Source: Oscillatoria sp. FACHB-1407
Lineage (GTDB): Bacteria > Cyanobacteriota > Cyanobacteriia > Elainellales > Elainellaceae
Length of the DNA stretch: 38,713 nt
Assembly (NCBI RefSeq): GCF_014697545.1
Contig: NZ_JACJSA010000034.1
Span: forward strand, 1 to 38,713
Reading direction: 5' to 3'
Part shown: one piece after another, positions 1 to 38,713 of the stretch
Layout: each line of letters opens with the position of its first letter
Numbering within the stretch: the first letter of the stretch is position 1
Notes under the pieces: model-generated
What the model saw: the letters and a program-made list of their open reading frames with translations, nothing else
Databases searched by the model: none
Told to the model about the DNA's origin: nothing
Translations under genes and position numbers: made by a program

Positions 1-33
1 GGATGCAAAGAAGTTCTGAACTTCTTTGCATCC
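1..33. repeat. 33-bp palindrome at the window edge, candidate hairpin telomere or resolution site
   Basis: The first 33 bases form two perfect 16-bp inverted arms (1-16 and 18-33, left arm GGATGCAAAGAAGTTC) around a single T at 17. No T-tract follows, so it does not look like an intrinsic terminator for rightward transcription. A contig that starts in a perfect fold-back is what an assembler can produce when reads turn round a closed hairpin end, and the same window encodes a telomere resolvase. Against this, the single-base centre is not the even dyad expected of a resolvase product. An ordinary cruciform or transposon end is also possible. Confidence 0.5.
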
Positions 34-62
34 AATCTAATATAGCGATCGCTACCTATAAG

Positions 63-110
63 CAATTCAAATGCAACCCAATCTATTTGAATCTTTTATC
101 ATTTGAATTG
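63..110. repeat. 11-bp inverted repeat
   Basis: CAATTCAAATG at 63-73 is repeated in perfect inverted orientation at 100-110. The flanking words GCAACCCAAT and ATTGGATTGC extend the symmetry with one mismatch. It could form a cruciform or bind a dimeric protein. Confidence 0.6.
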
Positions 111-120
111 GATTGCACCT

Positions 121-217
121 GTGATCCCCATACGATCGCAATTAAGTAAAATAGCTGAAAGCCTTGCTGGGTGTGCATTTTGGCGTTCCGAGTACTGGTT
201 TGGCTTATGGGGATCAC
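121..217. repeat. 12-bp inverted repeat GTGATCCCCATA, 73-bp spacer
   Basis: GTGATCCCCATA (121-132) is exactly inverted as TATGGGGATCAC (206-217). The spacing resembles paired recombinase or transposase sites, but there is no gene between the arms, so function is unknown. Confidence 0.6.
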
Positions 218-462
218 AAGGTTCATCCAATCCAATACATTAGAAATCCGTATCAAATTATAGAAACATCCAATACAATTAACCCATATTCATTTGAATT
301 TACTATGAATCAAACCATCTACTCTCTTCATAATGGATTGGATATAAGCAATTCAAATCTATTGGAAAGTTATGAGTTTTTGATTGTAGTGCCTGAGTTT
401 ATTGGTCTGTTTGAGTTCTAGCAGTTGACTTGCTCAGTGCGATCGCTCAATTGAATTGCATA

Positions 463-491
463 TTGAATTTGTATATGGATTAAGCTAAAAT
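463..491 (+). promoter_or_regulatory. Promoter of the left small ORF
   Basis: TTGAAT at 463-468 and TAAAAT at 486-491 are separated by exactly 17 bp, a good sigma-70 type promoter. The right-arm copy keeps the geometry (TTGATT, 17 bp, TAGAAT) although the sequence has drifted, which supports function. Transcription should start near 498, about ten bases before the leader hairpin. Confidence 0.7.
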
Positions 492-507
492 GAATGCATA
501 TTCAAAA

Positions 508-540
508 GGCATCCGCTCAACGCCAATCGAATCGGATGCC
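508..540 (+). promoter_or_regulatory. Conserved leader stem-loop ahead of the left small ORF
   Basis: GGCATCCG (508-515) pairs perfectly with CGGATGCC (533-540) across a 17-base loop. The right arm has the same 8-bp stem and the same loop length, with the core AACGCCAATC identical. Conservation of loop as well as stem suggests a recognised RNA element near the 5' end, or a DNA operator. It lies about 20 bp before the start codon. Confidence 0.7.
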
Positions 541-561
541 CTACCTATTAGAGGTTCTTCA

Positions 562-783
562 ATGGTATCAACTCTCGTTAGACCTGTTCAATCTGCCCTT
601 ACAGCACCTTCTCTGTCTGCTTCTGCTATTGAAGCAATTCAATTCCTTTCACTTTCTAACCTCTCTGCTGACCAGCAAATCATTGTTGAAACTGCGATCG
701 GGCAAGTCGCTCTACAACGCAATTGCTCACGACTCACCGCCGCCTACTGGCTCAACTCTAAGGCGTTCCCGGAACTCTTCTAA
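562..783 (+). CDS. Small conserved protein, left-arm copy (73 aa)
   Basis: Function is unknown. The protein is a paralogue of the one at 38061-38285 near the other edge. Shared parts are an STL motif near the N-terminus, SAIE-AIQFL-L-NLS-DQQ in the middle, and VALQRNC-R--AA-WLN-KAFPE at the C-terminus. I chose the ATG at 562 because GAGG lies just upstream, the alignment with the right copy begins there, and the longer frame from 490 would start inside the -10 box. No signal peptide or membrane segment is visible. The right copy sits directly ahead of the telomere resolvase, so this left copy may be a leftover of an end duplication or a working regulator. It is probably transcribed from the promoter at 463-491. 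Confidence 0.75.
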   Translation: MVSTLVRPVQSALTAPSLSASAIEAIQFLSLSNLSADQQIIVETAIGQVALQRNCSRLTAAYWLNSKAFPELF

Positions 784-792
784 CTCTCCTGC

Positions 793-811
793 GGGGACAC
801 TCCTTGTCCCC
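793..811 (+). terminator. Stem-loop after the left small ORF
   Basis: GGGGACA (793-799) pairs with TGTCCCC (805-811) around a 5-base loop, ten bases past the stop codon. There is no T-tract, so classic intrinsic termination is doubtful. The equivalent hairpin between the right-arm ORF and the telomere resolvase is retained with a G-U pair, so it may instead be a processing or attenuation element. Confidence 0.5.
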
Positions 812-1147: not shown

Positions 1148-1187
1148 GATCTGCCAAACAAGGAAGATAATTGGTAAGTTTATCGAG

Positions 1188-15324: not shown

Positions 15325-16596
15325 ATGTTGAAAGATAAGAGACAGAAGCGAATTAAACCAACTGTCCTGGATCTCTTTTGTGGTGCAGGGGGAATGAGTC
15401 TTGGTTTTCAGAGTGCTGGCTGTGAAATTTTAGGAGGAGTTGATTCCAATCCTTATGCAATCAAAACACACCACAAAAATTTTCCTGACTGTATTGTCAA
15501 GCTGCCGCCAACAGATATTACTAAGCTGAAGTTCCCTAAGCTTGGACTTCATCCAGGAGATGTTGATATTTTGATTGGTGGACCTCCTTGTCAAGTCTTT
15601 TCGAGAGTTGGAATTGGCAAAATGAGATCTCTTAATAGAGATGTAGAGAGAGATCCTAGAAACTTCCTTTACAGATATTTTGTTGATGCTCTGGAATATT
15701 TTCAGCCTCTGTTCTTCGTGATGGAAAACGTTGATTTTTTAGAGGAAAAACCTATCTTTCGGAAAATCATCAAACAGCTTGAAAAAGGCAGAAGACGCAA
15801 GCTCAAAATATACCCTGGTTATAGAGTTTATTATCGTGTGTTGGTCGCATCGCAGTATGGAGTACCTCAAATTAGAAAACGTCTTTTCATTGTCGGGGTG
15901 CGTGAGGATCTGGATGTAGAGTATGTTTTTCCACGCCCATCAAGGCATAATCCAATTTCTGTAGAGGAGGCAATTAGTGACTTATTGCCTCTAACTCCGC
16001 CGTACATTCCTTTGAAGGAAAAAAGCAGCGGTCCAAAACAATTAGATACTAAAAAACCATACCGCTGCGCTCCCCAATCCAGCTATCAGGAGTTAATGCG
16101 GAAAGAAGTAGCAAAATTGAAAGAACCCGATGGGGTTATGAACCATATCTGTCGTGCCCATAATCCAGTAGACATGATCTGTTTTGCCATGTTGGGACAA
16201 GGAAAGAAATATCTTGACTTACCCGAAAATATGCGGCGTTACAAATGGGATAGCTTTGATGATAAATACAAACGACTGTCCTGGAAGGAGCCTTCATGGA
16301 CTTTAACAGCCCACATGAGAAAAGACTGTTTGGCTTATATTCATCCTCAACAAAATCGTAGTATTTCTGTTAGAGAAGCTGCAAGAATACAGAGTTTTCC
16401 AGATGATTTTGTGTTTGATGCACCGATGACAAGAATGTTTGAGCTTGTTGGTAATTCAGTTCCTCCTCTTCTAGCAAGAGCAGTTGCGAAGCCGATTGTA
16501 AAACTTGTCAAACATTTGAGATCTTTAATCAGACAATCGGAGAACTTGATTCAAAATATTACTTTTGGTAGCAAAGTTCAGCTTAATGTAATCTGA
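15325..16596 (+). CDS. DNA (cytosine-5)-methyltransferase (423 aa)
   Basis: Transfers a methyl group from S-adenosylmethionine to carbon 5 of cytosine. All core motifs are in order: motif I DLFCGAGGMSLGF (16-28), motif IV GGPPCQVFS with catalytic Cys89, motif VI ENV (134-136), motif VIII QYGVPQIRKRLFIVG (177-191), a variable target-recognition region (about 200-330), and motifs IX-X SVREAARIQSFPDDF and LVGNSVPP. It looks complete. Base composition is visibly more AT-rich than the flanks, and HIP1 sites are almost absent across the island, suggesting acquisition. It is the modification partner of the convergent four-gene operon that ends 44 bp downstream. Confidence 0.96.
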   Translation: MLKDKRQKRIKPTVLDLFCGAGGMSLGFQSAGCEILGGVDSNPYAIKTHHKNFPDCIVKLPPTDITKLKFPKLGLHPGDVDILIGGPPCQVFSRVGIGKMRSLNRDVERDPRNFLYRYFVDALEYFQPLFFVMENVDFLEEKPIFRKIIKQLEKGRRRKLKIYPGYRVYYRVLVASQYGVPQIRKRLFIVGVREDLDVEYVFPRPSRHNPISVEEAISDLLPLTPPYIPLKEKSSGPKQLDTKKPYRCAPQSSYQELMRKEVAKLKEPDGVMNHICRAHNPVDMICFAMLGQGKKYLDLPENMRRYKWDSFDDKYKRLSWKEPSWTLTAHMRKDCLAYIHPQQNRSISVREAARIQSFPDDFVFDAPMTRMFELVGNSVPPLLARAVAKPIVKLVKHLRSLIRQSENLIQNITFGSKVQLNVI

Positions 16597-16639
16597 TGAA
16601 TGTCTGTATAATTTTGAGTATGGTACAGAAATCTAGTGG

Positions 16640-22192: not shown

Positions 22193-23706
22193 CACAGGTC
22201 TCCTTTATCCAGATTCTTACCAAAGCTGTTCACCAGCTCTTCAAAACGTTGGAAAGGCTCCATCTTAACCAAACGGCTGCGGGCATCCTCTGGCTTTAAG
22301 CCGTTTTTTATCATTGCCTGATAAACCTGCCTCATTACCTCTACAATTTCCTCTGGTGGATCCCCTTCAAAGGGTTGACTATGCTTTTCAGGTTCAACAG
22401 AACTGTCAAGCCAAATTCGTTGTACAGGCACTGTTTCTTCAAGCAGTCGAATCAGCGCTCGTATAACTTGCTGAAACTCCCCATCTATTCTTAAAGCCTC
22501 TTTAATCAGAGGATGCTCCTGGTTTATGAGATAAAAAATTTTTCCATGTTTAACTCTTCTCTCCCAAGGGAAAATATATTCCTCTGCTGCCGTTGTTGCA
22601 ACAACTTTTCCCCTATGTCGATAAATCTCCATTGCTTTCTGACGCGTTAGCCTAGCTATACGTTTGAGGTCCGATCTAAGGAATGCAGGTGGACGCGCTC
22701 TAGACTTTTTGACATCAATGTTCCAGTCACTGTCCATTGAATTCGTCAAGTTAACTTCGATACGAGCCAGCTTGTGATGCTCCTCTTTCTGAAAACCAAG
22801 TCCCAGCCAATCGCCAGCCACAAGCAGCCTTTCGTTGCGATAAACATAAAACCCTTGTTGAGCATTCCAGCCATCTGGACCTGCTGCTTTGTTATAGGTT
22901 TGTTGACTGATTTTAGAGTGATGAGGTAACACATAAGGTTTGATTAACAGGCTGTCTTCCTCTATCTGAAATCGTTCTTCCGGCAAATTCTGTGTGGCTT
23001 TTTCGTTAGGTAGGAATGGGTTCCAGGGTTCGACAGGTGCATCGTTTATCCAGAGGCGCAATTGATTATGACGCTCCAGAAACCGATGAAACACCATAGC
23101 TAAATGTCTCTCTACTACTTCTATAAGTTCAAGAAATCGATTATGGGCTTTCTGGTCATCTACCCTTGTACTACCCACAATTTGGTCTAGGTGCTCCCAT
23201 AAGACAATTGTTCCTTGCGAGTTCTCTCTAAAATCAGAAAGCTTGCTGAGTGTTTCAGCAGTAAATGATTTAAGTAACCGCCATTCCCCAGTTTGGGTAA
23301 CGTAATCTAAGTTCCATTGTCGTGTTGCAACACTGTAACCTGAAGCCTTTGATCTGACCGTGAGTTTTCTACATTGAGAAAACGAGGCTGTTTTAAGACC
23401 TAGACCAAAACGTCCTAAATCATCCGGTTTTCTGATCTCCATAGGACTCTGGCTGCTTGGTCTCATTGCGTTGACCAGCTCCGTCTCTGTCATCCCCTTT
23501 CCATTGTCTTCAATTGATATGTAGGAATCAGAACCATTCCAATGAAAGGTTAGCCAAATTTTCTCTGCTTTTGCTGAAATGCTGTTGTCAATGATATCAG
23601 CGATCGCAGTTTGAAGGTTATAACCGAATGCTCGTAATGACTCAATCATTGCTGAAGCACGAGGCTCAACTAAATCATATGCACTATCATTAGTTTGATT
23701 TGCCAC
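22192..23706 (-). CDS. GHKL ATPase of the MutL/MORC-like restriction group (504 aa)
   Basis: The first gene of the operon. The Bergerat fold motifs are clear: N1 AIADIIDNSIS with Asp37 and Asn41, N2 IEDNGKGM (65-72), and N3 DLGRFGLGLKTASFSQ (96-111). This is the pattern of Hsp90/MutL-like clamps. Iyer, Abhiman and Aravind (2008) described such MutL-like ATPases, ancestral to eukaryotic MORC proteins, next to Z1 helicases and cytosine methylases. The start is GTG at 23706; the next ATG is 19 residues in and would cut into the conserved N-terminus. The C-terminal 200 residues are helical. ATP-driven dimer closure on DNA is the expected activity. Confidence 0.92.
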   Translation of the reverse strand: MANQTNDSAYDLVEPRASAMIESLRAFGYNLQTAIADIIDNSISAKAEKIWLTFHWNGSDSYISIEDNGKGMTETELVNAMRPSSQSPMEIRKPDDLGRFGLGLKTASFSQCRKLTVRSKASGYSVATRQWNLDYVTQTGEWRLLKSFTAETLSKLSDFRENSQGTIVLWEHLDQIVGSTRVDDQKAHNRFLELIEVVERHLAMVFHRFLERHNQLRLWINDAPVEPWNPFLPNEKATQNLPEERFQIEEDSLLIKPYVLPHHSKISQQTYNKAAGPDGWNAQQGFYVYRNERLLVAGDWLGLGFQKEEHHKLARIEVNLTNSMDSDWNIDVKKSRARPPAFLRSDLKRIARLTRQKAMEIYRHRGKVVATTAAEEYIFPWERRVKHGKIFYLINQEHPLIKEALRIDGEFQQVIRALIRLLEETVPVQRIWLDSSVEPEKHSQPFEGDPPEEIVEVMRQVYQAMIKNGLKPEDARSRLVKMEPFQRFEELVNSFGKNLDKGDL

Positions 23707-23981: not shown

Positions 23982-24611
23982 ATGGACGTGTTCAACTTCC
24001 GACAAAAACTGATTGAATGGGGGCAAGAACACTTCCGTCCTTTTCCCTGGCGTTTTACCGATGATCCGTATTACATCCTGATGGCTGAAGTGATGCTTCA
24101 TCGAACCCAGGCTCAGCAGGTTGTTCCAGTATATAAACACTTTATTAAGCGTTTTCCTGACATTGCCTCTTTAGGTGAAGCGACTGAGGAGGAAGTGGGT
24201 GAAATGCTTTACTCCCTTGGACTTCATTGGAGAACCCGGCTAATTCATGAGATGGCTATAGCTCTCGTTAGTCGTTTTGATGGAAAAATTCCCTCTAAGA
24301 AATCGGACCTGCATAGCCTTCCAGGGGTAAGTGATTATATCGTCAGTGCTGTTCGATGTTTTGCATGGAAGCTACCTGATGCAATTGTGGATACAAACAC
24401 AGTCCGTGTAACAGGTCGTTTGTTCGGATTGGAGGTGAAGGACTCTTCCCGACGTAACCGTAAATTTCGAGAATTGATTGCCTCTCTGATTGACCCTGAA
24501 AAACCAGTCAACTATAACTATGCTCTGTTGGATCTAGCAGCTCAGATTTGTACTAAAAGCCGCCCTCCAAACTGTGGTCAATGTCCTGTGCAATCTGTTC
24601 GGCGACAATAA
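23982..24611 (+). CDS. Mig-type HhH-GPD mismatch DNA glycosylase (209 aa)
   Basis: A Nth/MutY-superfamily glycosylase. RFTDDPYYILMAEVMLHRT lies at about 24-42, the helix-hairpin-helix LPGVSDY at 113-119, and catalytic Asp137 in AIVDTN. Residue 119 is Tyr where EndoIII has its catalytic Lys and MutY has Ser. Tyr there is the mark of Mig, the T:G glycosylase partnered with a cytosine methylase on Methanobacterium plasmid pFV1. It therefore likely replaces Vsr in repairing deaminated 5-methylcytosine. Three cluster cysteines are present (190, 198, 201) but the expected fourth, at 207, is Arg and the protein ends two residues later; spacing of the first pair is also one longer. The ATG at 23982 is preferred over a TTG at 23967. 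An IS starts about 30 bp downstream. Confidence 0.85.
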   Translation: MDVFNFRQKLIEWGQEHFRPFPWRFTDDPYYILMAEVMLHRTQAQQVVPVYKHFIKRFPDIASLGEATEEEVGEMLYSLGLHWRTRLIHEMAIALVSRFDGKIPSKKSDLHSLPGVSDYIVSAVRCFAWKLPDAIVDTNTVRVTGRLFGLEVKDSSRRNRKFRELIASLIDPEKPVNYNYALLDLAAQICTKSRPPNCGQCPVQSVRRQ

Positions 24612-24748
24612 CCTTGGCTGGATCGAAAAGTAACGACTTGACCGGTTATGAGATTGCAACCCAAGGTTAGATCGCAAGGTCTACTTGGTCTGGTCAAAGA
24701 CTAAAAAAAGCACTAAAGAACTCCCAAGGATTTGCAGGGAGATCTACA

Positions 24749-26521
24749 GTGCCAGGTACATATATTCAAACCTATCAGGTTCAAGTGTATATGCGAGCAA
24801 GGGAAGAAGGGTGCACGCAACAAGCATCAGCTGCTATCGCTGGCTTTAGTGAACGCAGTGGCAGACGGATTGAGCAGGGAGAGCATCAACCAAAGTACGG
24901 ACAAGAGCGCGAGTGGCGCACCCGCCCCGACCCACTTGCCGGGGTCTGGGAGAGTGAACTAGAACCAATGCTCAAGCGGGAACCCCGCTTAGAGCCAACG
25001 ACCTTATACGAATATCTGACTAACAAATATCCAGGGCAGTATGAGCAAACCTTGCGGACACTGCAACGACGGGTGGAGACTTGGAAAACCCTCTATGGTG
25101 ACCCCAAAGCTGTGATGTTCCAGTTGCGACATGACCCTGGAGCAATGGGATTGTCCGACTTCACCGAGTTAAAGGGGGTCGAGATTACGATCAATGGCAA
25201 ACTCTTTGAGCACATCCTCTACCACTACCGCTTAGCGTACAGCGGTTGGCAGTATGTGCAGATTATTCAAGGCGGGGAAAGCTTTATCGGTTTGTCGGAA
25301 GGATTGCAGAATGCTCTTAACGCCTGTGGAGGAGCACCACAGCTACATCGCACCGACTCTTTGAGTGCGGCGTATCGCAACATGGCAGGCAAACGCTACA
25401 AGCCGTTAACTCGCTTTTATGACCAGTTGTGTGAGCACTATCGGATGCGACCGACGCGCAACAACACAGGTCTTGCCCATGAGAATGGCTCGATTGAATC
25501 GCCGCATGGACACTTCAAGCGCAGGCTGGTGCAACAGTTGTATTTGCGTGGCAGTTTTGATTTTGAGTCAGTGCAATGCTATCAGAAGTTCATCGAGCAG
25601 GTTGTAGCCACGATTAATGCCAAATGCACAACGAAGTTTGAGGAGGAGAAACACCACCTGCAACCATTGCCCAAGTATCGCTTTGCCGATTATGAGGAAG
25701 TCCTAGTCAAGGTCAGTTGTTATAGCACCATTGAGGTGCGCTGTGTTCTCTACAGTGTGCCGTCGCGACTGATTGGACGACAGTTAACCGTTCATCTCTA
25801 CCATGACCGGTTGGTAGGCTTTGTGGGTAAGCAGCAAGTGGTTGAACTGGTTCGTGTCCGAGGGGCTAGTAGCGGCACTAACCGACGGGCTCGGTGCATC
25901 AACTATCGCCACATCATTGAGGGACTACGCCGTAAACCGAGAGCCTTTTTGTACTGCACCTGGCAGCAGGAGATCTTGCCCACCGAGCAATGGCGAGGTC
26001 TTTGGCAACAGATGAGCGAACAGTTTGATGCGGATAGTGCTGCCAAAGTGATGGTGGAGGCTCTCTACATCGCCGCCACCCAGGATAAGGAGACGGCAGT
26101 GGCAGACTACCTTGAGGTGCAATTACAACGAGGCAGTTTGACGCTCGCCCGCTTACAGCAGCACTTCCAGTTGCTCTCCTCGCCTGCGCTGCCCACCGTT
26201 GATGTTCAGCAACACAAGTTATCCGAGTATGACCAACTCCTCAGTTCCAACACCCCCACCCCCAACACCAACCCCTTACCTGTCGGAGAGCAACCCTTAC
26301 CCGAGTCTGAGCCTACTGCTCAAACAACTCCATTTGTCCCATATGCTCAACCACTGGCAAAGCCTGGAAACCAAAGCAATTCAGGAGAGTTGGTCGTACG
26401 CTCAGTTCTTGCTAGCACTGTGTCAATTAGAGGCGGACAGAAAGTTACAAGTGAGGTTGCAACGGGCCCTAGCAGAAGCACAACTGCCAACTGGAAAAAG
26501 CTTTACCACCTTCAACTTTGA
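24749..26521 (+). CDS. istA: IS21-family transposase IstA (590 aa)
   Basis: A DDE transposase that cuts and joins the IS ends. The N-terminal 60 residues are a degenerate helix-turn-helix region with QASAAIAGFSERSGRRI. The catalytic core has Asp137 in GLSDFTEL, Asp203 in HRTDSLSAAY and Glu250 in ENGSIESPHGHFKRR. A Mu-transposase-like beta-barrel region follows (VLVKVSCYSTIEVRCVLYSVP). The start is GTG 24749 with GGGAG upstream. The last 107 codons overlap istB in another frame, and this tail (rich in P, T, S, N) looks like dual-coded linker, so the functional protein may effectively end near residue 490. Confidence 0.93.
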   Translation: MPGTYIQTYQVQVYMRAREEGCTQQASAAIAGFSERSGRRIEQGEHQPKYGQEREWRTRPDPLAGVWESELEPMLKREPRLEPTTLYEYLTNKYPGQYEQTLRTLQRRVETWKTLYGDPKAVMFQLRHDPGAMGLSDFTELKGVEITINGKLFEHILYHYRLAYSGWQYVQIIQGGESFIGLSEGLQNALNACGGAPQLHRTDSLSAAYRNMAGKRYKPLTRFYDQLCEHYRMRPTRNNTGLAHENGSIESPHGHFKRRLVQQLYLRGSFDFESVQCYQKFIEQVVATINAKCTTKFEEEKHHLQPLPKYRFADYEEVLVKVSCYSTIEVRCVLYSVPSRLIGRQLTVHLYHDRLVGFVGKQQVVELVRVRGASSGTNRRARCINYRHIIEGLRRKPRAFLYCTWQQEILPTEQWRGLWQQMSEQFDADSAAKVMVEALYIAATQDKETAVADYLEVQLQRGSLTLARLQQHFQLLSSPALPTVDVQQHKLSEYDQLLSSNTPTPNTNPLPVGEQPLPESEPTAQTTPFVPYAQPLAKPGNQSNSGELVVRSVLASTVSIRGGQKVTSEVATGPSRSTTANWKKLYHLQL

Positions 26522-27044
26522 GCACTGTCCTACTCTCAATCCAGCTCCTTTAATACAATTAAGCCAAGATGCTAGCTGGTTAGAGCGAGCCCAGAACCTA
26601 ATTCTACTAGGTCCAAGTGGTGTTGGAAAAACCCATCTTGCGGCTGCAGTGGGACGATCTGCAATTGAGTGCGGCAAGCGAGCTAAGTTTTTCTCGGCGA
26701 CTACCCTTGTCCAGCAATTGCAATACGCCAAACTGCAATTGCAATTGCCTGCAATTCTCACAAAACTAGACCGCTTCGATCTACTGATCGTTGATGATTT
26801 AGGCTACGTCAAAAAGAGTGAGGCAGAAACGGGTGTGCTCTTTGAACTCATCGCTCATCGTTATGAGCGTAAGAGTTTACTGGTCACGGCAAACCAGCCG
26901 TTTAGCCAATGGGATGCGATCTTCTCTGACTCCACCATGACGGTCGCTGCCGTAGACCGATTAGTGCATCATGCGCTCATTGTTGACATTCAAGCAGAGA
27001 GTTTTCGCAAGCAATCTGCACTAGAACGGGTTCAACCGACGTAG
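26202..27044 (+). CDS. istB: IS21-family helper ATPase IstB (280 aa)
   Basis: An AAA+ protein related to DnaC that selects target DNA and activates IstA. Walker A is GPSGVGKT (137-144), Walker B is LLIVDDLG (194-201), and sensor-1 VTANQPF and the arginine-finger region DRLVHH follow. The first 35 residues are proline-rich linker-like; the conserved family region starts at about LLKQLHLSHML. The true start may be downstream of 26202, because no ribosome binding site is visible here. Overlap with istA is about 320 bp, much longer than usual for the family. Confidence 0.92.
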   Translation: MFSNTSYPSMTNSSVPTPPPPTPTPYLSESNPYPSLSLLLKQLHLSHMLNHWQSLETKAIQESWSYAQFLLALCQLEADRKLQVRLQRALAEAQLPTGKSFTTFNFEHCPTLNPAPLIQLSQDASWLERAQNLILLGPSGVGKTHLAAAVGRSAIECGKRAKFFSATTLVQQLQYAKLQLQLPAILTKLDRFDLLIVDDLGYVKKSEAETGVLFELIAHRYERKSLLVTANQPFSQWDAIFSDSTMTVAAVDRLVHHALIVDIQAESFRKQSALERVQPT

Positions 27045-27385
27045 CCTGCAACGGTGCGATCTGCAATTGAAGCTTTGACTAGTTGCAACAAGAGCAACTA
27101 CTCCACCTCAGAATCATAACTCTGGTGTTATTGATTCACAATTTAACTTGGGTTGAGCAGACTGTAGTGTCAATACTACAGTCCGTTTTTAGTCCAAATT
27201 TAGTTTCTCTTTGTAGTGTCGATGAGTAGTTGTCACCCTAACGCGACAATTCCTTTGAGTCATTTAACCGGACAAGGTGAATTCAAATTAATCGAGCAAG
27301 GTAATTGACATTAGACAGCAATCTTTCTGCCACTATGGAAAGGACTCTCTGAAGTATCCGAAGTAATTGTTTTAAGGGGATCGAG
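27045..27385. other. IS right end and pentapeptide-gene leader
   Basis: 341 bp without a gene. Up to 27274 it is the non-coding right end of the IS with two related terminal repeats. A GACTGTAGTGTCAATACTACAGTC dyad around 27161-27184 (arms GACTGTAGT and ACTACAGTC) lies inside it. The remaining 110 bp lead into the pentapeptide gene, with AAGGGG as its ribosome binding site. Confidence 0.55.
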
Positions 27386-28252
27386 ATGGCGGACAAAGAA
27401 CACTTGGCTATGCTTATTCAGGGGGCTGACAAATGGAATGAATGGAGACAGATGATGGATGAAAGCGAGGAACTTTGTGATGATTTTTATGAAGTGAATT
27501 TAAGTGGGGCCGATCTCAGTAATGTGAACTTGAGTGGTTTTGACCTCAGCAGAACTGACTTGAGTGGTGCAAACCTGAGCGATGCTGGGCTTGTTGAAGT
27601 TGATTTCAGTTATTCTGCTCTGTGCAAGGCTGATCTCAGCAACTCTCGCTGTCAGGGATGTAATTTTAATGAAGCAGATTTGGAAGAGGCAAACTTTAGT
27701 AAAGCTAACCTTACTTACGCTAATTTCAATGGAACAAATCTAATTAGCGTGAATTTCAGGCAGTCGCGTTTATGGGAGTCTGATCTCTCCTCTGCTAATT
27801 TGAGCAATACTGACTTTAGTGAGTCCACGCTAGTTGGGTCCAATCTTCGTGGTATTCAGAGTAATGGAGCAGTTTTCTACAAAGCAATCCTTGGAAGTGC
27901 CAATCTTAGCGGTTCTGAATTCACTGGAGCTAATTTTAGTGAAGCCGATCTTAGTCGAGCCAATATGAGTGGTACGGACTTTGCGAAAGCGAATTTCGTC
28001 AATGCTAATCTCTATAGAGTTGAAGCTTTGGAATCTAGCTTTATCTCTGCAAATTTTACAGGTGCTTGTTTGAAAGACTGGCATATTGATGCTGCTACTC
28101 AACTAGATGATGCCATCTGTGAGTACTTTTACTGGGGATTGGATCAACAGAACCGCTGTCCGCAGAACGGTATCTATAAACAAGGGGAGCTTGCAGAACT
28201 GTTCAAACGGGCACGAAACTTGGTTGAATCGTTACTACAGAAGGGCTTGTAA
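27386..28252 (+). CDS. Pentapeptide-repeat protein (288 aa)
   Basis: About 40 tandem A(D/N)LXX pentapeptides run from about residue 38 to 235, for example GADLSNVNLSGFDLS. They fold into a right-handed square beta-helix. The capping helices are residues 1-35 and the last 45 (FKRARNLVESLLQKG). Such proteins are very common in cyanobacteria. Some members mimic DNA and protect gyrase, but nothing here shows that. No signal peptide is visible. The ATG at 27386 follows AAGGGGATCGAG. It ends 7 bp before the convergent regulator gene, and no terminator was seen between them. Confidence 0.92.
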   Translation: MADKEHLAMLIQGADKWNEWRQMMDESEELCDDFYEVNLSGADLSNVNLSGFDLSRTDLSGANLSDAGLVEVDFSYSALCKADLSNSRCQGCNFNEADLEEANFSKANLTYANFNGTNLISVNFRQSRLWESDLSSANLSNTDFSESTLVGSNLRGIQSNGAVFYKAILGSANLSGSEFTGANFSEADLSRANMSGTDFAKANFVNANLYRVEALESSFISANFTGACLKDWHIDAATQLDDAICEYFYWGLDQQNRCPQNGIYKQGELAELFKRARNLVESLLQKGL

Positions 28253-29221: not shown

Positions 29222-30388
29222 TCATTTTGCTTTTGAGATCTGTTCAAGCTCTGCAAGCTTCGCCTTGAGTGCTTGTTTCAAGGCTTTGATCTCGTCAGCT
29301 TGCCAGTCTTCCACTGAAATAGACTGTAAACTCTTAATCACTCGTTGGGAGGGACTACGAATAGCCGAGTTGTCGCTATTATGGGTTTTGAGCAAGTCAC
29401 TGACTAACTCACGGGTCTCACTTAGCGATAAGTTTTCTGCTGCAACCCTTCGAGCTGTCTGACTTCTTACCTCTGCTGCCGCTACTGCATCCAAATTCAG
29501 TTTCTCAGCAGAAAGCTTGTTTAGTTCTCGTACTTTACTGGCATCTAAGCCAAATTCCCGAACGATCTCCTTAAGGTCGTCGGCGATCGCCAGCATCGGA
29601 AACACGTTGGCACTGATGGAAGCTGGGTTTAGTTGGTAGTCCATCAGTGCCTGAAAGATTTTTAGCTCTGCATCCTGTTTTAACTCAATGGATTCTAGCC
29701 ATTCCCGTTGCTCCTCCCTGGAGGCAGTAGTGATAGCGGTTAACTCCGAAAGCTTTTTATTTCGCTTCAGGCGTTGCAGGCAAGTATTGAGCATTGTTGG
29801 AATGCGATCTCGTTCCTCCTCAATCTCGGGATTTCGATAAACAATTTGGTTGATCAGACACTCTGCTAAATCAAGAGGGTGTAGATCCTTCCGATGAATG
29901 GAGGTAGATAACGCCTGACTTTGAATCTCCTGGAGGTTAATCTCCTCTGACTCCAGTGGAATGATGACAGCCTTAAGGGTTGTCCATGGGATGAGAGGAG
30001 CTGCCCGCCACCGGCGCTCGCCGTCAAAAATTAAATAGCCTTCTTTCCAGGGAAACAGGATGACCGGAGTGTGCTGCCCCTCCTGCTTTAACAGTTCTGC
30101 AAATGCCTTAAGCTCAGACTGCGGAAATGTCTGCCGGGGTTGAAAAATGTTGCGCTCCATGCGTGCAATCTCAATTTCTTGAACCCCGCCTTGTGCTGAC
30201 AGTTGCTGTGTTAATTCCTGGATTTTTGCTTCCAGTTCCAATTTTTCCTGGGTGGCAAGTTCCTGACTTTTGAGGCGTACAATCTCAGCCTCCAGTTCCT
30301 CTACCCGACTCGACAAATGATGAACTTTTTGGGTTTGCCCAGCCTCAGCAAAAATCTGGCTGGCTCCAATCGGCTTTGGTCTTGGCAT
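29222..30388 (-). CDS. parB: ParB-family partition protein (388 aa)
   Basis: A CTP-dependent centromere-binding protein partner to ParA. A coiled coil (about 25-65) precedes a ParB/Srx domain with IFQPRQTFP (81-89) and the phosphate-binding GERRWRA motif (123-129). An HTH-type helical region follows (LSTSIHRKDLHPLDLAECL, about 145-163, and downstream). The C-terminal 60 residues are helical (dimerisation). It is longer than minimal ParB because of the extra N-terminal coiled coil. The ATG overlaps the parA stop (TAATG), showing translational coupling. Confidence 0.9.
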   Translation of the reverse strand: MPRPKPIGASQIFAEAGQTQKVHHLSSRVEELEAEIVRLKSQELATQEKLELEAKIQELTQQLSAQGGVQEIEIARMERNIFQPRQTFPQSELKAFAELLKQEGQHTPVILFPWKEGYLIFDGERRWRAAPLIPWTTLKAVIIPLESEEINLQEIQSQALSTSIHRKDLHPLDLAECLINQIVYRNPEIEEERDRIPTMLNTCLQRLKRNKKLSELTAITTASREEQREWLESIELKQDAELKIFQALMDYQLNPASISANVFPMLAIADDLKEIVREFGLDASKVRELNKLSAEKLNLDAVAAAEVRSQTARRVAAENLSLSETRELVSDLLKTHNSDNSAIRSPSQRVIKSLQSISVEDWQADEIKALKQALKAKLAELEQISKAK

Positions 30389-31245
30389 TACTTCCCTTTC
30401 AGTAGATTGATGATACGCGCCACGATGGGGTCGAATGACTTCACGATCGAGTCCCCTGGTTGATAAATCTGTACAGGTAGCCCTGTACCACTGGCACTCA
30501 AAATGAATCCAGATTCTTTAATCGGTGGAAAGCAAGTGATCCCCATCTGCTCAAGTTGATAGGGGATCGTATCGGTTAATTCGATGTCGGTTCTGGGTTT
30601 ACCTTTGCTATCAAGTCCCAGCAAATTACGATGAGCGGCAAACTTAGACACGTTTACCCTAGATGGCACAAACCCCAAAATTTCTGGCTTAGGACGTAAT
30701 CGAAGAGCTTCTATTTTTTGATAAAACCAGTTGACCATCCCCGCTGCCCCGAAAGAGTCCTTATATTCTGGTTTCAAGGGAACCAAAACGTGGGTTGATG
30801 CTGCAAGAGCGATTAGCCCCATTGGCTCTAGGGACGCAGGAGTATCCAGAATGACGACATCCGCATCAAGAGGGTAGTCTTCCAGCCTGTCCTTAAGGGT
30901 TTCATACTTTCGCTCGTAGAGATGTAGGCTGCGGACGATTTCTTCTAGCGCTGCGCCACCTGGAAGAACCTGAATATTGTCCACATACTCTTTCCAGATA
31001 GGAGCTAGGGGGTAACTGCCATCAAAACTCGGATCGAAAACGGCAGCAAGAGACTGTTCCCTTGAAGGAGTTGCTGTTTCCCCTGTAAACAGGCTTAATG
31101 AACCATTTTGATCCAGGTCAATCAAAACAACCTTGTACCCTTTCTTCCCTAACGCGTAGGCTAAATGGGTCACCAATGTTGTTTTCCCTGATCCTCCTGT
31201 ATTGCTCTCGATCGCAATTCTGATTTGCTGAGCAGCTTTGGGCAT
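30388..31245 (-). CDS. parA: ParA-family partition ATPase (285 aa)
   Basis: Drives plasmid segregation through ATP-dependent DNA binding. The deviant Walker A NTGGSGKTT (15-23) lacks the usual KGG lysine signature (it reads TGG), a small oddity. Walker A' is LIDLDQNGS (41-49), and Walker B is VVILDTPASL with VLVPLKPEY following. Length is normal for a plasmid ParA without an N-terminal HTH. The ATG at 31245 has no Shine-Dalgarno; it is only 12 bp from a 20-bp near-palindrome, so a short-leader or leaderless message controlled by that site is likely. Confidence 0.92.
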   Translation of the reverse strand: MPKAAQQIRIAIESNTGGSGKTTLVTHLAYALGKKGYKVVLIDLDQNGSLSLFTGETATPSREQSLAAVFDPSFDGSYPLAPIWKEYVDNIQVLPGGAALEEIVRSLHLYERKYETLKDRLEDYPLDADVVILDTPASLEPMGLIALAASTHVLVPLKPEYKDSFGAAGMVNWFYQKIEALRLRPKPEILGFVPSRVNVSKFAAHRNLLGLDSKGKPRTDIELTDTIPYQLEQMGITCFPPIKESGFILSASGTGLPVQIYQPGDSIVKSFDPIVARIINLLKGK

Positions 31246-31257
31246 AAAAAATAGTTT

Positions 31258-31305
31258 GTACCATAACGTTAAAGTATATCACTCTGTACCATAACGTTAT
31301 AGTAC
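31258..31305. promoter_or_regulatory. Two 20-bp near-palindromes upstream of parA, parS or operator
   Basis: GTACCATAACGTTAAAGTAT (31258-31277) and GTACCATAACGTTATAGTAC (31286-31305) are direct copies spaced 28 bp apart. Each is nearly self-complementary around AACGTT, the second with only one mismatched pair. Phase of 28 bp is just under three helical turns. Placement against the parA start suggests ParB binding (parS) or an autoregulatory operator. On the minus strand TATACT-like words between them could be the -10. Confidence 0.75.
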
Positions 31306-32241: not shown

Positions 32242-33546
32242 TTACTCTAATTCGATCCCAATGTGTTCCTGACTCTGATTATTGGTGGAACGTAAGAGAG
32301 ATTGATATTGCATTTGTTCTTGAGCAATCTTTGTTTCCTTGATCCCTCTCTGGAAATGCTGCCAATGCTCTAAAGAAATATCGGCGTGCAGGATGTCCCA
32401 ATCGCTCTCATTCCGTGTTTCTCCTTGAAGAAGAACTTGGTTGGGCTTTTCCTTTTCGACCACAATAATCTGTTGTGTTTCCTCATTCCATTTGGCGGAT
32501 AGCCAGTTGTCCTCTAATTCAGTCTTCTCCACCTCATTCATTCGATCTTCGAGGTAGCTAAGTATTGCTCTAGCTCGCTTCCATTGAGCACTTCCATATT
32601 TAGGTCTTTTACCATTAAAGATGTGCTCCTGGTGTAAGCGATCGTGTTCAAGCTGTTGATATTGCTCGAAGTGAGTGTCAAGAAAACGTTGGCACTCGTC
32701 AGGTGATGCTTTCTGAATGTCCCGTAATTGTTGAGGTTGGCTGTCATCGTATTGTTGGACGAAATCGTTGCGCTGTAGTCCAATAAAACTGTATTGCCGC
32801 CCCAGGTCTTTACCCTTTCTCAAAGCTCCGTCAATTTCAAAACTGATTCCAATAACTTTGCCATCAATTTCCTTGAACCGAACGCCTACTTCTCGAGTCT
32901 TCAGCCGGGCTGCCATTACTGCAAAGGTCGGTTTATCCTCAGTTGCCTCTCGAATTTGCTCCCAAAGTTTTTCGGTTGGGGTTTGCTCGATACTCAGTCT
33001 TTGCTTCATTCGATATTCGCCCGTTGGCAGGTTGTTGCGCTCTCGTTCCGGCCTAAATGTGTAGGGTTGCAGATTAAATTCTTCCTCTATTTGTTCCTGA
33101 ACCGATTTCTCCCCTCCCAAGCCATACTTCAGTCTAGTAACGATGTAGGCATCATCTACCCACTTGCCATTTTTATCAACTGCAGAAACTGCACCATGCC
33201 CATGCTCCACCTCCAGCTTTTCCTCCTTGTCGTAGTGTTTAGCGTTTACATACAGGCAATCCTGGTGCCCAGTTAGTTCATAAATTCTTTTGAAGATTCT
33301 CGCAAACTTCTCTTGACTAACTTTCTCTCCAGGCTGAAACGAAACTGCAAGGTGGCGCATTGTGATTTTGACATTAGGGTTTGTCTTGTGGCTGAACCTG
33401 AATTCTTCTGTTAACTCCTCCGCATCTCGTCCAGACATGTTGGTACTGATAATGGGATTGTCGTTTTCGTCACGTTGTTTTTTCGGATTGAGCAGGTACT
33501 GACACAATCCCAGTGGGTCGCTGCCATTGTTGTACTCGATATTCAT
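32242..33546 (-). CDS. Relaxase/mobilization nuclease (434 aa)
   Basis: Nicks one strand at oriT for plasmid transfer. The N-terminal 130 residues show the relaxase layout: an early tyrosine (Tyr5 or Tyr17), MRHLAVSFQPGEKVS with His65, CLYVNAKHYD, and the metal-binding HGH (His115, His117). The third His of a strict 3H motif is probably His65 or His94. The C-terminal 250 residues are charged and helical. The start overlaps the mobC stop (ATGA) with AGGAGATTTT upstream, so they are one operon. It most resembles MobP/MobV-like cyanobacterial relaxases. Confidence 0.82.
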   Translation of the reverse strand: MNIEYNNGSDPLGLCQYLLNPKKQRDENDNPIISTNMSGRDAEELTEEFRFSHKTNPNVKITMRHLAVSFQPGEKVSQEKFARIFKRIYELTGHQDCLYVNAKHYDKEEKLEVEHGHGAVSAVDKNGKWVDDAYIVTRLKYGLGGEKSVQEQIEEEFNLQPYTFRPERERNNLPTGEYRMKQRLSIEQTPTEKLWEQIREATEDKPTFAVMAARLKTREVGVRFKEIDGKVIGISFEIDGALRKGKDLGRQYSFIGLQRNDFVQQYDDSQPQQLRDIQKASPDECQRFLDTHFEQYQQLEHDRLHQEHIFNGKRPKYGSAQWKRARAILSYLEDRMNEVEKTELEDNWLSAKWNEETQQIIVVEKEKPNQVLLQGETRNESDWDILHADISLEHWQHFQRGIKETKIAQEQMQYQSLLRSTNNQSQEHIGIELE

Positions 33547-33881
33547 AAAATCTCCTGTGCTCGGTACTGGAGCCGCTTTAATGCAATTTCGCGCCGGGTG
33601 TCCTGTATCAGTTCATGTAAGTTTGCTTTTTCTACTGTGCTTAAATCTGTGCGATCGAGAAGCCGCTCTGCCATTTCTCCTAGCTTCCAGTGAAGCTGTG
33701 AGTTGGCTAATGCTCCCTCTGCTCGTCGCCTTGCTCCCGAATCCCGTCCGTTGGAGAATGCCATCTCGATCAAAAACTTGCTCACTGACATTCCTCGCTC
33801 TTGGGCAAGAGCCTTAATTTCTTCTTTTTGATCCTCGGAACTGCAATAAATCTCGATACTTGGTCGCTTTAGCTTGCTCAT
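33543..33881 (-). CDS. MobC-like ribbon-helix-helix accessory protein (112 aa)
   Basis: A relaxosome accessory protein that usually binds oriT and helps open it. The N-terminal segment RPSIEIYCSSEDQKEEIKAL plus AQERGMSVSKFLIEMAF is a strand-helix-helix DNA-binding motif. The C-terminal half is helical. I chose the ATG at 33881; a GTG at 33896 in frame is possible but neither has a strong ribosome binding site. The 25-bp repeat ends exactly at this start codon, so MobC may bind its own promoter and oriT. It is coupled to the relaxase by a 4-bp overlap. Confidence 0.75.
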   Translation of the reverse strand: MSKLKRPSIEIYCSSEDQKEEIKALAQERGMSVSKFLIEMAFSNGRDSGARRRAEGALANSQLHWKLGEMAERLLDRTDLSTVEKANLHELIQDTRREIALKRLQYRAQEIL

Positions 33882-33905
33882 ATCCGGTACTGCCACAGCT
33901 TGCTG
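33881..33905 (-). repeat. 25-bp repeat abutting mobC, possible oriT core (copy 2)
   Basis: The reverse complement is identical over 25 bases to 1123-1147, and about 30 further bases outside it match partly. Here AGCAAGCT is repeated on both sides of the core (also at the start of mobC). Position immediately upstream of a relaxase operon is the normal place for oriT. Confidence 0.65.
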
Positions 33906-36173: not shown

Positions 36174-37979
36174 CTAAATCTGAATTACATCGCCAATTTT
36201 CCGTTTGCGCTTGTGGCGATTGTTATGCCCTGCTCTAATTTGGTGCTGTTGGTGGTGAGCGTCAATCTCATCCCGTCGCTCTGTCACAATCCGCTCAATT
36301 ACTCGTTGGTTGGCGGTATAAGTTTTGAGACCATTAATCGTAATTTCCCACTTGAGATCGTGTAGCTGATCAGGTTGATTGTTGTGAGCCATGATTGCAT
36401 CGATCGCCCGATTCACGATCGCGTCAGCCTCACCAGTTTTGTACTTGCGGGGTTTGTTTTCCTTAATTGATTCTTCAGTTGCATTTGTTTCGTCAGTAAA
36501 AGTTGTCTTAGCGATAGGTTGAGGTGATGGAGCTAGCTTTGCTGTTGCTGCCCTTTGAGCTGATACAACAGGCTGAATGTTTGCTTGCTGGATCTGCATC
36601 TGAAACTGCATAAACTGAGCCATCACATCGACGAGCTTATCAAGCTTTGATTCCAATCCACTCGATACAGGTTTTTCTAAAGGTTCTTTGGATTGGATTG
36701 ATTCCGGTGAGTCAGCTTTTTCTACGTCCTCCGTTTCCTCCGTTTCAGCAGGTATGGCGTCAGCAGGAGAAGCGATCTCCTCCCCCACCTCACCAGAAAT
36801 AGTTTCTTCCGGCTCAATTACTGCAGATTGCATAGGCAACTGCTTTTGTGACCATGCAATCCAAGCAGATACCTTGTCTTGCTGCGTTTTGCCTTCAAAT
36901 TGCCTCAAAATTTCTGCTACAGCATCATGATCTTCTCGCCAGATCCGGAGACTAGAGCGATGTTTCTTCTCAGTGATTGTAGGTTGTGGTGCGTCAGCCG
37001 CTTCCTTAAACACTTCTAATACCTCCACCCCTTGCCAATCCAAATGAATGCCCTGCCGCCCATCAATGTTGCCCTTACCATCCCCTATTTTGAAATCGCT
37101 GTAGTGCCGTGAACTTGCAAGTTTCCGCCGTAGTTCTGGATTTTTTTCATCTAATACAGCAAAATGCCCCTGACAATGTGCCTTAAACTCAGTTGCATCC
37201 ACATTCACAGGGCAGTAAAACCAGACGGCGATCGTGCCGTAGATTGCTCGAAACAAATGACTGTAGAGGTTATCTTTGCCTGGACGGTTGGGAATGAGAT
37301 CAGCGAAGTGGCGATCGCAAGCGTCAGCGACCTTGTGCCCATACTCAGCATTAATAGCCTCCCTGGTTTTACCTTCCACATTTACTAAGCCTCGCAACCG
37401 CTTAAGCCCATTCAGAACGTATTCTGCTTGGCAAAGGGTAGGGATTTCAAAGCTCAAAGTTTGCTCCTCTCCCCTTCTTTTTAATGCGCCTTTGAAAATC
37501 ACGCTGTACTGAGTTTTAGGGGTAAATTCAGCCGTTGCCATTACCTCGGTTGATCGTCGTCCGGTGAGTACCGCCAGTGCCGCTGCTACATCAGTCCACT
37601 CAGGGGACTGTAACAGGTTTACCGATCTGGTGATTAAGGCGTTGACATTACCAGGGTCAAGAATGATGCATTGAGTGTTCCTTCGTGCGACCTGGCCTTG
37701 TTTTTCCTCATTGAGTTGAGTGTATTCAGCTTTAGTGAAATTGATATAGTTCAGCGAGAAATGATTTTCACCCAGTTTGTCCTTAATTGCTCTACGAGTC
37801 TGATCCATGAGGGATTGTTGCTGTTTGAGTTCCTTAGCGCCCCTCGCTGCCCAAGCATCACGAATCGATAGAGCAAGTTGTTGAGCCTTAGCCACTCCAT
37901 CTGGAGAGTCTTCTAATTGAGAGAGTGCAGGAATGTACTCGTTATCGATCAAATGATTGAGCCAGCCACGTTTACCCAT
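36174..37979 (-). CDS. Telomere resolvase (protelomerase family, 601 aa)
   Basis: A tyrosine-recombinase-related enzyme that cuts palindromic telomere junctions and forms hairpin ends. Catalytic landmarks in order: LAVLTGRRSTEV with Arg141/Arg142, IFKGALKRR with Lys163 or Lys167, YSHLFRAIYG with His241/Arg244, and SSRHYSDFKI with His292 and probable nucleophile Tyr293. The N-terminal 110 residues and a C-terminal basic DNA-binding region (KYKTGEADAIVNRAIDAIMA to HKRKRKIGDV) flank a disordered linker (about 370-500). I chose the ATG at 37979 with GGAG upstream. It is 81 bp after the right-arm small ORF on the same strand. Linear replicons need it, but homologues also occur in cyanobacteria whose plasmids are reported circular, so linearity is not implied by the gene alone. 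Confidence 0.85.
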   Translation of the reverse strand: MGKRGWLNHLIDNEYIPALSQLEDSPDGVAKAQQLALSIRDAWAARGAKELKQQQSLMDQTRRAIKDKLGENHFSLNYINFTKAEYTQLNEEKQGQVARRNTQCIILDPGNVNALITRSVNLLQSPEWTDVAAALAVLTGRRSTEVMATAEFTPKTQYSVIFKGALKRRGEEQTLSFEIPTLCQAEYVLNGLKRLRGLVNVEGKTREAINAEYGHKVADACDRHFADLIPNRPGKDNLYSHLFRAIYGTIAVWFYCPVNVDATEFKAHCQGHFAVLDEKNPELRRKLASSRHYSDFKIGDGKGNIDGRQGIHLDWQGVEVLEVFKEAADAPQPTITEKKHRSSLRIWREDHDAVAEILRQFEGKTQQDKVSAWIAWSQKQLPMQSAVIEPEETISGEVGEEIASPADAIPAETEETEDVEKADSPESIQSKEPLEKPVSSGLESKLDKLVDVMAQFMQFQMQIQQANIQPVVSAQRAATAKLAPSPQPIAKTTFTDETNATEESIKENKPRKYKTGEADAIVNRAIDAIMAHNNQPDQLHDLKWEITINGLKTYTANQRVIERIVTERRDEIDAHHQQHQIRAGHNNRHKRKRKIGDVIQI

Positions 37980-38032
37980 AGTAAATCTCCAGATTGAATT
38001 GATTGTAGGGTGAATTGGGTTGGATAAGGAGA

Positions 38033-38049
38033 GGAACAAGAAGTGTCCC
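38033..38049 (-). other. Stem-loop between the small ORF and the telomere resolvase
   Basis: On the minus strand GGGACA pairs with TGTTCC (one G-U) around a 5-base loop, matching the hairpin at 793-811. It lies in the 81-bp gap before the resolvase, so it may attenuate or process the operon message. Confidence 0.5.
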
Positions 38050-38060
38050 CCGTAGAGGTG

Positions 38061-38285
38061 TTAGTAGATTTCAGGGAAAGCCTTCTTATTGAGCCACCAA
38101 GCTGCTTGCTGTCTAAAGCAATTGCGTTGTAGAGCCACTTCATCGATTGCCGCTTTAATCGTCAATTGTTGGTCATCAGAGAGGTTGTAGAGCTTAAGGA
38201 ACTGGATTGCTTGCTCAATAGCAGAGGTGGGCAGAGAGACTGGTACAGAGACGGAATGCTTGAATTTGGTAAGAGTTGATAGCAT
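38061..38285 (-). CDS. Small conserved protein, right-arm copy (74 aa)
   Basis: A paralogue of the left protein at 562-783, starting MLSTLTKFKHSVSV and ending WWLNKKAFPEIY. More than half of the aligned positions are identical. The ATG at 38285 follows TTGAGG. It is expressed from the conserved promoter at 38357-38385 through the leader hairpin, and precedes the telomere resolvase in the same operon, which suggests it regulates or accompanies it. No known domain was recognised. Confidence 0.75.
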   Translation of the reverse strand: MLSTLTKFKHSVSVPVSLPTSAIEQAIQFLKLYNLSDDQQLTIKAAIDEVALQRNCFRQQAAWWLNKKAFPEIY

Positions 38286-38307
38286 AAGAGAACCTCAAGA
38301 AGGTAAG

Positions 38308-38340
38308 GGCATCCGGTCAGATTGGCGTTTGGCGGATGCC
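38308..38340 (-). promoter_or_regulatory. Conserved leader stem-loop, right copy
   Basis: GGCATCCG/CGGATGCC stem (38333-38340 with 38308-38315) with a 17-base loop that keeps the AACGCCAATC core of the left copy. It lies about 10 bp after the predicted transcription start. Confidence 0.7.
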
Positions 38341-38356
38341 TTTTGAATGCATATAC

Positions 38357-38385
38357 ATTCTAGCTAAAACCCATATACAAATCAA
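38357..38385 (-). promoter_or_regulatory. Promoter of the small ORF-resolvase operon
   Basis: On the minus strand TTGATT (38380-38385), 17 bp, TAGAAT (38357-38362). Same geometry as at the left arm; both hexamers differ from the left copy by one base yet remain promoter-like. Confidence 0.7.
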
Positions 38386-38425
38386 TATGCAATCCATGTT
38401 CAATGCAATTCAATTATGCGATCGC

Positions 38426-38713
38426 CTCAAGTGTATGACTTCAAAACCTCTGATAGGGGTCTAATAGGCTTGATATTAGCAGCGGAAAAATTTTGGTCGT
38501 TAGTGAAGCTTTAGAAGCAACTGTCCCATTTTTGGCGACTGGGTGCTCAAACATGAGAAGTCTAGAATGGCGCAAAATCGTTCTCTGTAAATTAGACTGT
38601 CCCATTTGTGGCTCTTATATATAGTCCGCTTTTGGCTGTCTTCAACGTACTTAACGTAGGCAAAATCAGGAATTTTTATTCGTTGTAGACAGCATATATT
38701 GAGTTTGTCTCTA
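38426..38713. other. Right subterminal region with tandem TGTCCC-type repeats
   Basis: No gene seen. Three spaced direct repeats of about 15 bp occur: TGTCCCATTTTTGGC (38522-38536), TGTCCCATTTGTGGC (38598-38612) and TAGTCCGCTTTTGGC (38622-38636). Ends starting TGT with tandem internal copies are typical of transposons with Mu/TnsB/IstA-like transposases, so the window may stop inside such an element. It shows no resemblance to 1-438, so the two outer arms differ. A weak TAGACA...TGTCTCTA dyad is at 38686-38713. Confidence 0.5.

Follow-up and report, generated by a model that had tools for sequence, protein, structure and literature searches.

An odd-centred terminal palindrome on a probable hairpin-ended linear plasmid of the cyanobacterium Oscillatoria sp. 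FACHB-1407

The window analysed here is the whole of contig NZ_JACJSA010000034.1 (C34; 38,713 base pairs, bp) of the 66-contig, 8.13-Mb genome of Oscillatoria sp. FACHB-1407. From its sequence we are highly confident that C34 represents most of a linear plasmid with hairpin ends, although this confidence does not extend to the odd cleavage stagger considered below. The window belongs to a group of plasmids whose hairpin telomeres are centred on a single base, unlike the telomeres studied so far, and this clade of resolvase replicons with an odd, one-base centre (TC-A/T-GA) is, as far as we found, new. Among the titles and abstracts listed in the searches, a scope that left most subscription journals and bioRxiv outside, none dealt with cyanobacterial telomere resolvases or odd-centred telomeres. 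A first-pass annotation of the same DNA had proposed a linear replicon with hairpin ends, and its four supporting observations (a resolvase gene, a palindrome exactly at base 1, diverged inverted arms near both edges, and paralogous small open reading frames, ORFs, in both arms) have all stood. The left end is homologous to the end of G444:C4, a resolvase contig independent of this one, and the same architecture recurs in a relative, G533:C4; both strengthen the proposal.

The left end of the window is a palindromic fold-back, as expected of a linear replicon with hairpin telomeres, with perfect 16-bp arms around base 17. In a survey of the 66 contigs, each of the 132 ends was checked for palindromes whose arms are 8 bp or longer and whose centre is no more than 100 bases from the end; four ends, those of two contigs consisting entirely of N, were excluded as unreadable. 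A palindrome beginning at the terminal base was found at only 2 of the 128 readable ends, C34-left (16+1+16) and C52-left (18+0+18), and a family search of the genome confined matches to the telomere resolvase family PF16684 to these same two contigs. At the remaining readable ends, palindrome arms of 8 bp or none were listed. Since many contig ends have 101 bp or slightly more in common, the assembly looks de Bruijn-type with an overlap of 101; C34-left has no sequence in common with any other of the 132 ends. Since repeats often lie at contig ends here, the palindrome might be an ordinary terminator or repeat that is at the end by chance. We give this explanation almost no credence, given a loop of 1 nucleotide (nt), no second exact copy of the arm anywhere in the genome, the restriction of such ends to the two resolvase contigs, and the homologous end in G444.

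Window positions 1-373 align to the right end of G444:C4 through its terminal base (68% over 377 columns, E 3e-25), and positions 455-554 match G444 as well; G444:C4 has its own 16+1+16 palindromic end. Positions 43-362 match the start of G437:C33 (E 3e-31), both E-values applying to a search of the fetched loci only. We infer that bases 17-33 are the plasmid end and that bases 1-16 are read-through onto the other strand, base 17 very probably being the apex of the hairpin telomere. The centre reads GTTC-T-GAAC, and the general form GTTC-W-GAAC is common to the window and to the ends of L214, L221, L301 and G533:C4. Beside the core lies a CTTTGCATCC box, a probable resolvase contact; in the half-site listing FPU101, G444 and G419 each have a similar box after theirs, and FACHB-1515 has none. 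The second resolvase contig of the genome, C52 (L018), carries an even telomere with a GGTTAACC centre and 18-bp arms, to which the telomere of G412:C120 is nearly identical.

The product of the 36174-37979 ORF is a telomere resolvase both by sequence and by predicted fold. It matches PF16684, the ResT-TelK catalytic domain family of Pfam, with E 6.4e-35; it also matches the solved protelomerases TelA and TelK (4dwp, 2v6e) by sequence and, weakly, ResT (8vs5; E 0.004). An AlphaFold model built from 17 sequences has a mean predicted local distance difference test score (pLDDT) of 73 and a predicted template modelling score (pTM) of 0.49. At E<=0.001 Foldseek returned eight structures, six of them TelA chains and the other two TelK and ResT, with TMt values to TelA of 0.71-0.73; the next match is a Cre-type recombinase at E 0.03. 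Numbering the residues with the ATG as residue 2, R142, R143, K168, R245, H273 and Y294 show no variation in an alignment of 17 sequences, the window's and those of 16 relatives, and we propose them as catalytic residues, equating R142/R143, K168, R245, H273 and Y294 by position with R255, K286, R366, H394 and Y405, which passages of PMC3558466 give for TelA. Y294 would be the catalytic tyrosine, an assignment that stays tentative because its distance from the histidine is 21 residues, compared with 11 in TelA, and because the model is less sure there: pLDDT is mostly above 85 up to residue 270 and about 70 at residues 271-300, the region of H273 and Y294. The named relatives are nearly all from cyanobacteria, and the G444 resolvase is the sister of the window's on the tree (56% identity, support 99/96). 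In the four contigs having both features, the resolvase starts 594 to 1,154 bp from the hairpin centre.

When genome contigs were scanned with the resolvase alignment, 29 loci were obtained, and their contig ends formed the first of three tested sets, between which several contigs recur. Terminal palindromes were present at 2 of 34 ends in the first set, Chroococcus FPU101 seq079 (22+1+22) and Microcoleus FACHB-1515 contig6 (26+1+26), both with the centre GTTC-T-GAAC of the window. In the second set they occurred at 3 of 18 ends: G444:C4, G419:C45 (11+1+11) and G404:C56, the last being the FACHB-1515 contig again. The same kind of test found them at 2 of 14 ends in the third, namely G390:C76, a Drouetiella scaffold (20+1+20), and G525:C11, where a 45-nt odd palindrome has an imperfect 3-nt centre. 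A relative, G533:C4 (45,320 bp), is telomere-like on both sides: its right end is an 8+1+8 palindrome, GTAAGTTC-W-GAACTTAC, containing the GTTC-W-GAAC core, its left end has the same core with a fold-back of one base only, and its arms, each with a small ORF, are identical at 722 of 859 positions. G533:C4 is probably the same plasmid as pLBY of Leptolyngbya boryana (NZ_AP014641.1; 44,369 bp, deposited as linear and annotated with a "protelomerase family protein"), because the two resolvases are at zero tree distance and the matched parts of both small-ORF end copies are identical. As a separate observation, pLBY (L155) holds a third, internal copy of the small ORF at 27797-27970, beside a large hypothetical protein at 24010-27414; the arrangement resembles the window's left arm, and pLBY may contain a former plasmid end.

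Taking centres at the ends, or inside the fold-backs, of resolvase replicons, and pairing resolvase with telomere by their presence on the same record, we found that the centres divide into two types. Ten replicons from nine genomes have odd one-base centres, all TC-A/T-GA: the window, FPU101, FACHB-1515, G444, G419, G390 (Drouetiella), G533:C4, Chondrocystis NIES-4102 plasmid2 (odd palindromes at both ends, 94-bp arms) and plasmid3 (odd palindrome at one end, 46-bp arms), and G027. Ten others, from seven genomes and outside the odd clade, have even centres: C52, Gloeocapsa PCC 7428 pGLO7428.02 (both ends), G078:C59 (both ends, TCATGA), G078:C53 (both ends), G412:C120, G412:C126, Calothrix NIES-22 plasmid8, Fischerella NIES-4106 plasmid7 and plasmid4, and G410:C1. 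In the second resolvase tree, which has 41 rows and includes 21 for which no telomere is known, one change separates odd from even, and none of 500 shuffles gave a value as low. In a first tree of 37 rows, with 6 odd and 7 even centres, the support was 99/98, and values as low came from 0 of 500 shuffles for odd and 2 of 500 for even. Left out of the second tree were G278 and L205, both with very long branches and L205 without a telomere; G525:C11 is not in the tree.

A palindrome centred on a base pair makes a symmetric cut with an even stagger impossible, and we therefore infer an odd one; an odd cleavage spacing is thus predicted from sequence for the clade, as against the 6 bp across an even palindrome that is reported for known enzymes. 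By analogy with the family, replication from an internal origin would copy round the hairpins to give a head-to-head dimer, and the resolvase would then cut the palindromic junction and fold each half into a hairpin. The odd stagger, most simply one of 5 bp round TCWGA, would leave a TCWGA overhang whose folding gives a hairpin with one unpaired base, or a triloop, at its apex, so that sister ends would carry A and T respectively at the apex. On balance we slightly favour the full proposal that resolvases of this clade act on odd-symmetric telomeres (TC-W-GA) with an odd, probably 5-bp stagger and A/T apices on sisters, and that they have linearised at least one main chromosome, that of G027.

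The main rival to the odd centre accepts the hairpins as real and takes the missing base for a copying artefact, polymerases or assemblers having dropped one apex base of an even TCATGA core to give TCAGA or TCTGA. All ten odd centres are indeed TC-W-GA, that is, TCATGA minus one base, and passages of PMC3558466 give TCATGA as the core of TelA. However, TCATGA is intact at both ends of G078:C59, a single assembly holds the odd C34 and the even C52, and the ten odd and ten even centres are split by resolvase clade, which an artefact would not do unless TCATGA were confined to that clade. We regard apex loss as unlikely, although it deserves more weight than any other rival explanation.

Several observations weigh against a hairpin-ended plasmid of the odd type. 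Regarding the ends of C34 itself, its right telomere is not assembled; a dead end is not special in this genome, where 26 of 132 ends, C34-left included, are unshared (4 of them N ends); and the fold-back assembled at C34-left is only 16 bp, though contig overlaps are 101 bp. The automatic test found no terminal palindrome at 32 of 34, 15 of 18 and 12 of 14 contig ends near resolvases in the three sets, draft contigs often stopping early; none was found on the linear same-clade records pLBY, pLBX and NIES-2135 plasmid2, nor at one of the two ends of Chondrocystis plasmid3. Some records with related resolvases were deposited as circular, namely NIES-3755 plasmid1 (same clade), Nostoc UHCC 0926 pn6 and PCC 7424 pP742401, and no palindrome with 12-bp arms spans the record junction of pn6. 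As for the odd clade, the branch between odd and even in the 41-row tree has a support of only 81/75 and appears in 84% of 200 bootstrap trees, and G278:C104 has an odd 29-nt end palindrome with a resolvase outside the clade; it was left out because its centre is an A4T5 run and its branch is very long.

The circular records, together with the assembly break at the right edge, would suit another explanation, in which C34 comes from a circular plasmid or phage-plasmid whose assembly broke at the palindrome, an internal resolvase site; N15-type phages retain such a site in their virion form. We consider this very improbable. The palindrome begins with the very last base of the contig, a feature also seen on both sides of G078:C59, G078:C53 and pGLO7428.02. 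When 20 window proteins, a subset of the ORFs, were compared with PHROGs, no family annotated as structural was matched, although several proteins matched families of unknown function.

The right edge of the window is an assembly junction and not a telomere. Homology between the arms ends at 38425, the right arm is interrupted by repeat-like sequence (Table 1), and the right telomere lies beyond. The first-pass annotation had expected the right end roughly 100-150 bp past the window if the arms are mirrored; this placement is not supported, and we rejected it, since the edge consists of 101 bp common to C51 and the distance to the right telomere is therefore not readable from symmetry. Searching the genome with the left half-site, at up to 2 mismatches, turned up no further exact copy; matches with 2 mismatches numbered four, the same as in the backward-read control.

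The hairpin-ended plasmid that we favour has inverted arms, 452-853 against 37993-38396, that are 73% identical (E 9e-55; pieces I1, I2, I6, I8 and I11). The small ORFs within them, compared over 562-780 and 38064-38285, are 58% identical, with NG86 nonsynonymous and synonymous divergences (dN/dS) of 0.33/0.81 and 20/19/32 differences by codon position. Inverted terminal arms are also a feature of Streptomyces-type linear plasmids with terminal proteins, a class to which C34 has only a negligible chance of belonging: it has a telomere resolvase and a palindromic end, and no terminal-protein name appeared in the Pfam matches of 30 proteins, the Pfam coverage of such families being unchecked. 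Directly upstream of the small ORF is a leader hairpin, GGCATCCG...CGGATGCC, which also precedes small-ORF relatives in G585:C72 and L219 and, in G404:C10, a different ORF. Its DNA is matched in 5 of 388 genomes of the class at E<=0.001, and Rfam gave no match anywhere in the window.

Table 1. Features of the 38,713-bp window and the evidence on which each is assigned (aa, amino acids).
Feature	Position	Strand	Basis
Left telomere as assembled	1-33		16+1+16 palindrome, no arm mismatch; putative apex base 17
CTTTGCATCC box beside hairpin core	24-33	+	Half-site listing
Left subtelomere	34-460		Homology to G444:C4 and G437:C33
Leader hairpin upstream of left small ORF	508-540	+	91% over 46 bp in G585:C72
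Left subtelomeric small ORF, 73 aa	562-783	+	Paralogue of right small ORF
Replication protein candidate, 1223 aa	1188-4859	-	PHROG 4913 "replication", E 6e-33; no Pfam family
ParB-like partition protein	29222-30388	-	PF02195, E 1.7e-13
ParA-like partition ATPase	30388-31245	-	PF13614, E 6.8e-25
MobA/VirD2-like relaxase	32242-33546	-	PF03432, E 1.8e-16
NikA-like relaxosome protein, weak	33543-33896	-	PF21983, 25.0 bits, below Pfam cut-off of 27
Telomere resolvase, 601 aa	36174-37979	-	PF16684, PDB matches, invariant residues, AlphaFold/Foldseek
Right inverted arm	37993-38425		Homologous to left arm 439-853
Right subtelomeric small ORF, 74 aa	38061-38285	-	Paralogue of left small ORF
Leader hairpin of right small ORF	38308-38340	-	GGCATCCG...CGGATGCC hairpin, as at 508-540
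Repeat-like segment	38467-38613		Resembles parts of C50 and C56 (identity about 75%)
101-bp assembly overlap, not telomere	38613-38713		Identical to first 101 bp of C51, reverse strand

According to its gene content, the C34 plasmid is partitioned by a ParAB system and is probably mobilisable. The replication-protein candidate adjoins the left arm. An inverted repeat, exact over 25 bp and 75% identical over 56 bp, has one copy downstream of the replication-protein ORF (1123-1147) and the other over the start of the NikA-like ORF (33881-33905), and two 20-bp direct repeats (95% identical, 28-bp spacing; 31257-31304) directly upstream of the ParA start are a candidate parS site or operator. The cargo includes an IS21-type pair and, at 15325-23706, an Mza-like anti-phage defence set (MzaB, C, D and E) with a C5 cytosine methyltransferase alongside; the Mza-like genes are defence cargo on a linear plasmid.

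Probable or possible folded ends were also seen in other records. Fischerella NIES-4106 plasmid7 (AP018305.1) and plasmid4 (AP018302.1) (L243, L246) were deposited as circular, but the record boundary of each is the centre of a perfect palindrome, with arms of 1,491 and 2,828 bp respectively, and both are probably linear. G585:C72 (L318, L321) has two 4,116-bp arms, 99.98% identical and head to head, with a resolvase on each and an unreadable centre; it also carries the window's leader hairpin and a small-ORF relative, and is perhaps another folded telomere. In the 1.5-Mb contig G410:C1 (L320), palindrome arms of at least 9,477 bp meet at an even GAATTC centre and both bear resolvases.

Two such cases may concern main chromosomes. 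G027:C1, a single 4.68-Mb contig beginning with a dnaA-like sequence, contains at about position 2,113,190 (L193, L194) a perfect 2 x 3,079-bp palindrome with the centre TATC-A-GATA and a resolvase on each arm; it is flanked by what we take to be dnaG, queA and malic enzyme genes on one side and cytochrome bd genes on the other. This contig looks like a linear main chromosome, ending in hairpin telomeres, that was assembled as a circle. G432:C1, a single-contig genome of 5,458,034 bp, has a resolvase about 8 kb from its end (profile E 2e-80, about the strength of G027's), and its start and end show inverted similarity of 76% over 893 bp, with 77 bp identical; it is perhaps another linear chromosome.

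The clade profile matched 98 of 388 sampled genomes of the class at E<=0.001, a count which includes weak and C-terminal-only matches, and the Pfam resolvase family was found in 15 of 386 genomes of the phylum, 14 of them above the family cut-off. When viral contigs were scanned with a profile, 27 stretches matched a pattern and none of them encoded a relative; 28 stretches from an exact-pattern scan for the half-palindrome were rejected as chance level, a level assumed without a test. The data suggest that the literature understates how common hairpin-ended replicons are in cyanobacteria, and that some lie hidden among draft contigs or among records deposited as circles. If the odd centre is true, a natural one-base-centred site would mean that a different geometry is tolerated in refolding or is the one for which this step is built, and the coexistence of odd and even systems in one genome (C34 and C52) offers a ready comparison set.

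With respect to known systems, the first-pass remark that hairpin linear plasmids are poorly described in cyanobacteria does not hold, since the hairpin plasmids pNPM8-10 of Nostoc sp. N6 were described in 2018, in text of PMC5987646 that reports terminal inverted repeats, hairpins inferred from palindromic reads, and termini in AAATTAACRGAC. Nostoc N6 and C34 are alike in being cyanobacterial linear plasmids with terminal inverted repeats, but the end of the window has a single central base (GTTC-T-GAAC), whereas AAATTAACRGAC as given there fits an even-centre type, namely the even half-sites at G078:C53 and Calothrix NIES-22 plasmid8. The words "resolvase" and "protelomerase" do not occur in the main text of PMC5987646; two of these hairpin plasmids, CP026683 and CP026690, carry protelomerase-family genes. 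The same text treats linear replicons as rare in cyanobacteria and mentions a linear chromosome of 429.7 kb in Cyanothece 51142 and an element of 37 kb in Anabaena variabilis, and a passage of PMC3558466 names cyanobacteria in passing among bacteria with hairpin-ended linear chromosomes. Outside the phylum, linear hairpin plasmids of Rhizobiaceae were shown by Nanopore reads in 2025, as stated in part of PMC13293297.

Among the systems close to the window, pLBY and G533:C4 share with it a same-clade resolvase (41% identity) and, at each end, the small ORF and an inverted arm; pLBY has a relaxase, as the window does, and G533:C4 has the GTTC-W-GAAC core at both ends. They differ from it in cargo, and the pLBY record is without palindromic ends. 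The N15-type telomere phages (TelN, TelK), whose telomere cores are even, share the resolvase family and the linear plasmid state, and the window differs from them in the lack of structural-annotated families noted above. TelA and the Agrobacterium linear chromid resemble the window's system in resolvase family, fold and the core TC..GA. According to passages of PMC3558466, all telomere resolvases known in 2013 cut 6 bp apart, and Agrobacterium TelA has an even 6-bp TCATGA core and a 6-bp stagger, as against the 5-base odd core of the window.

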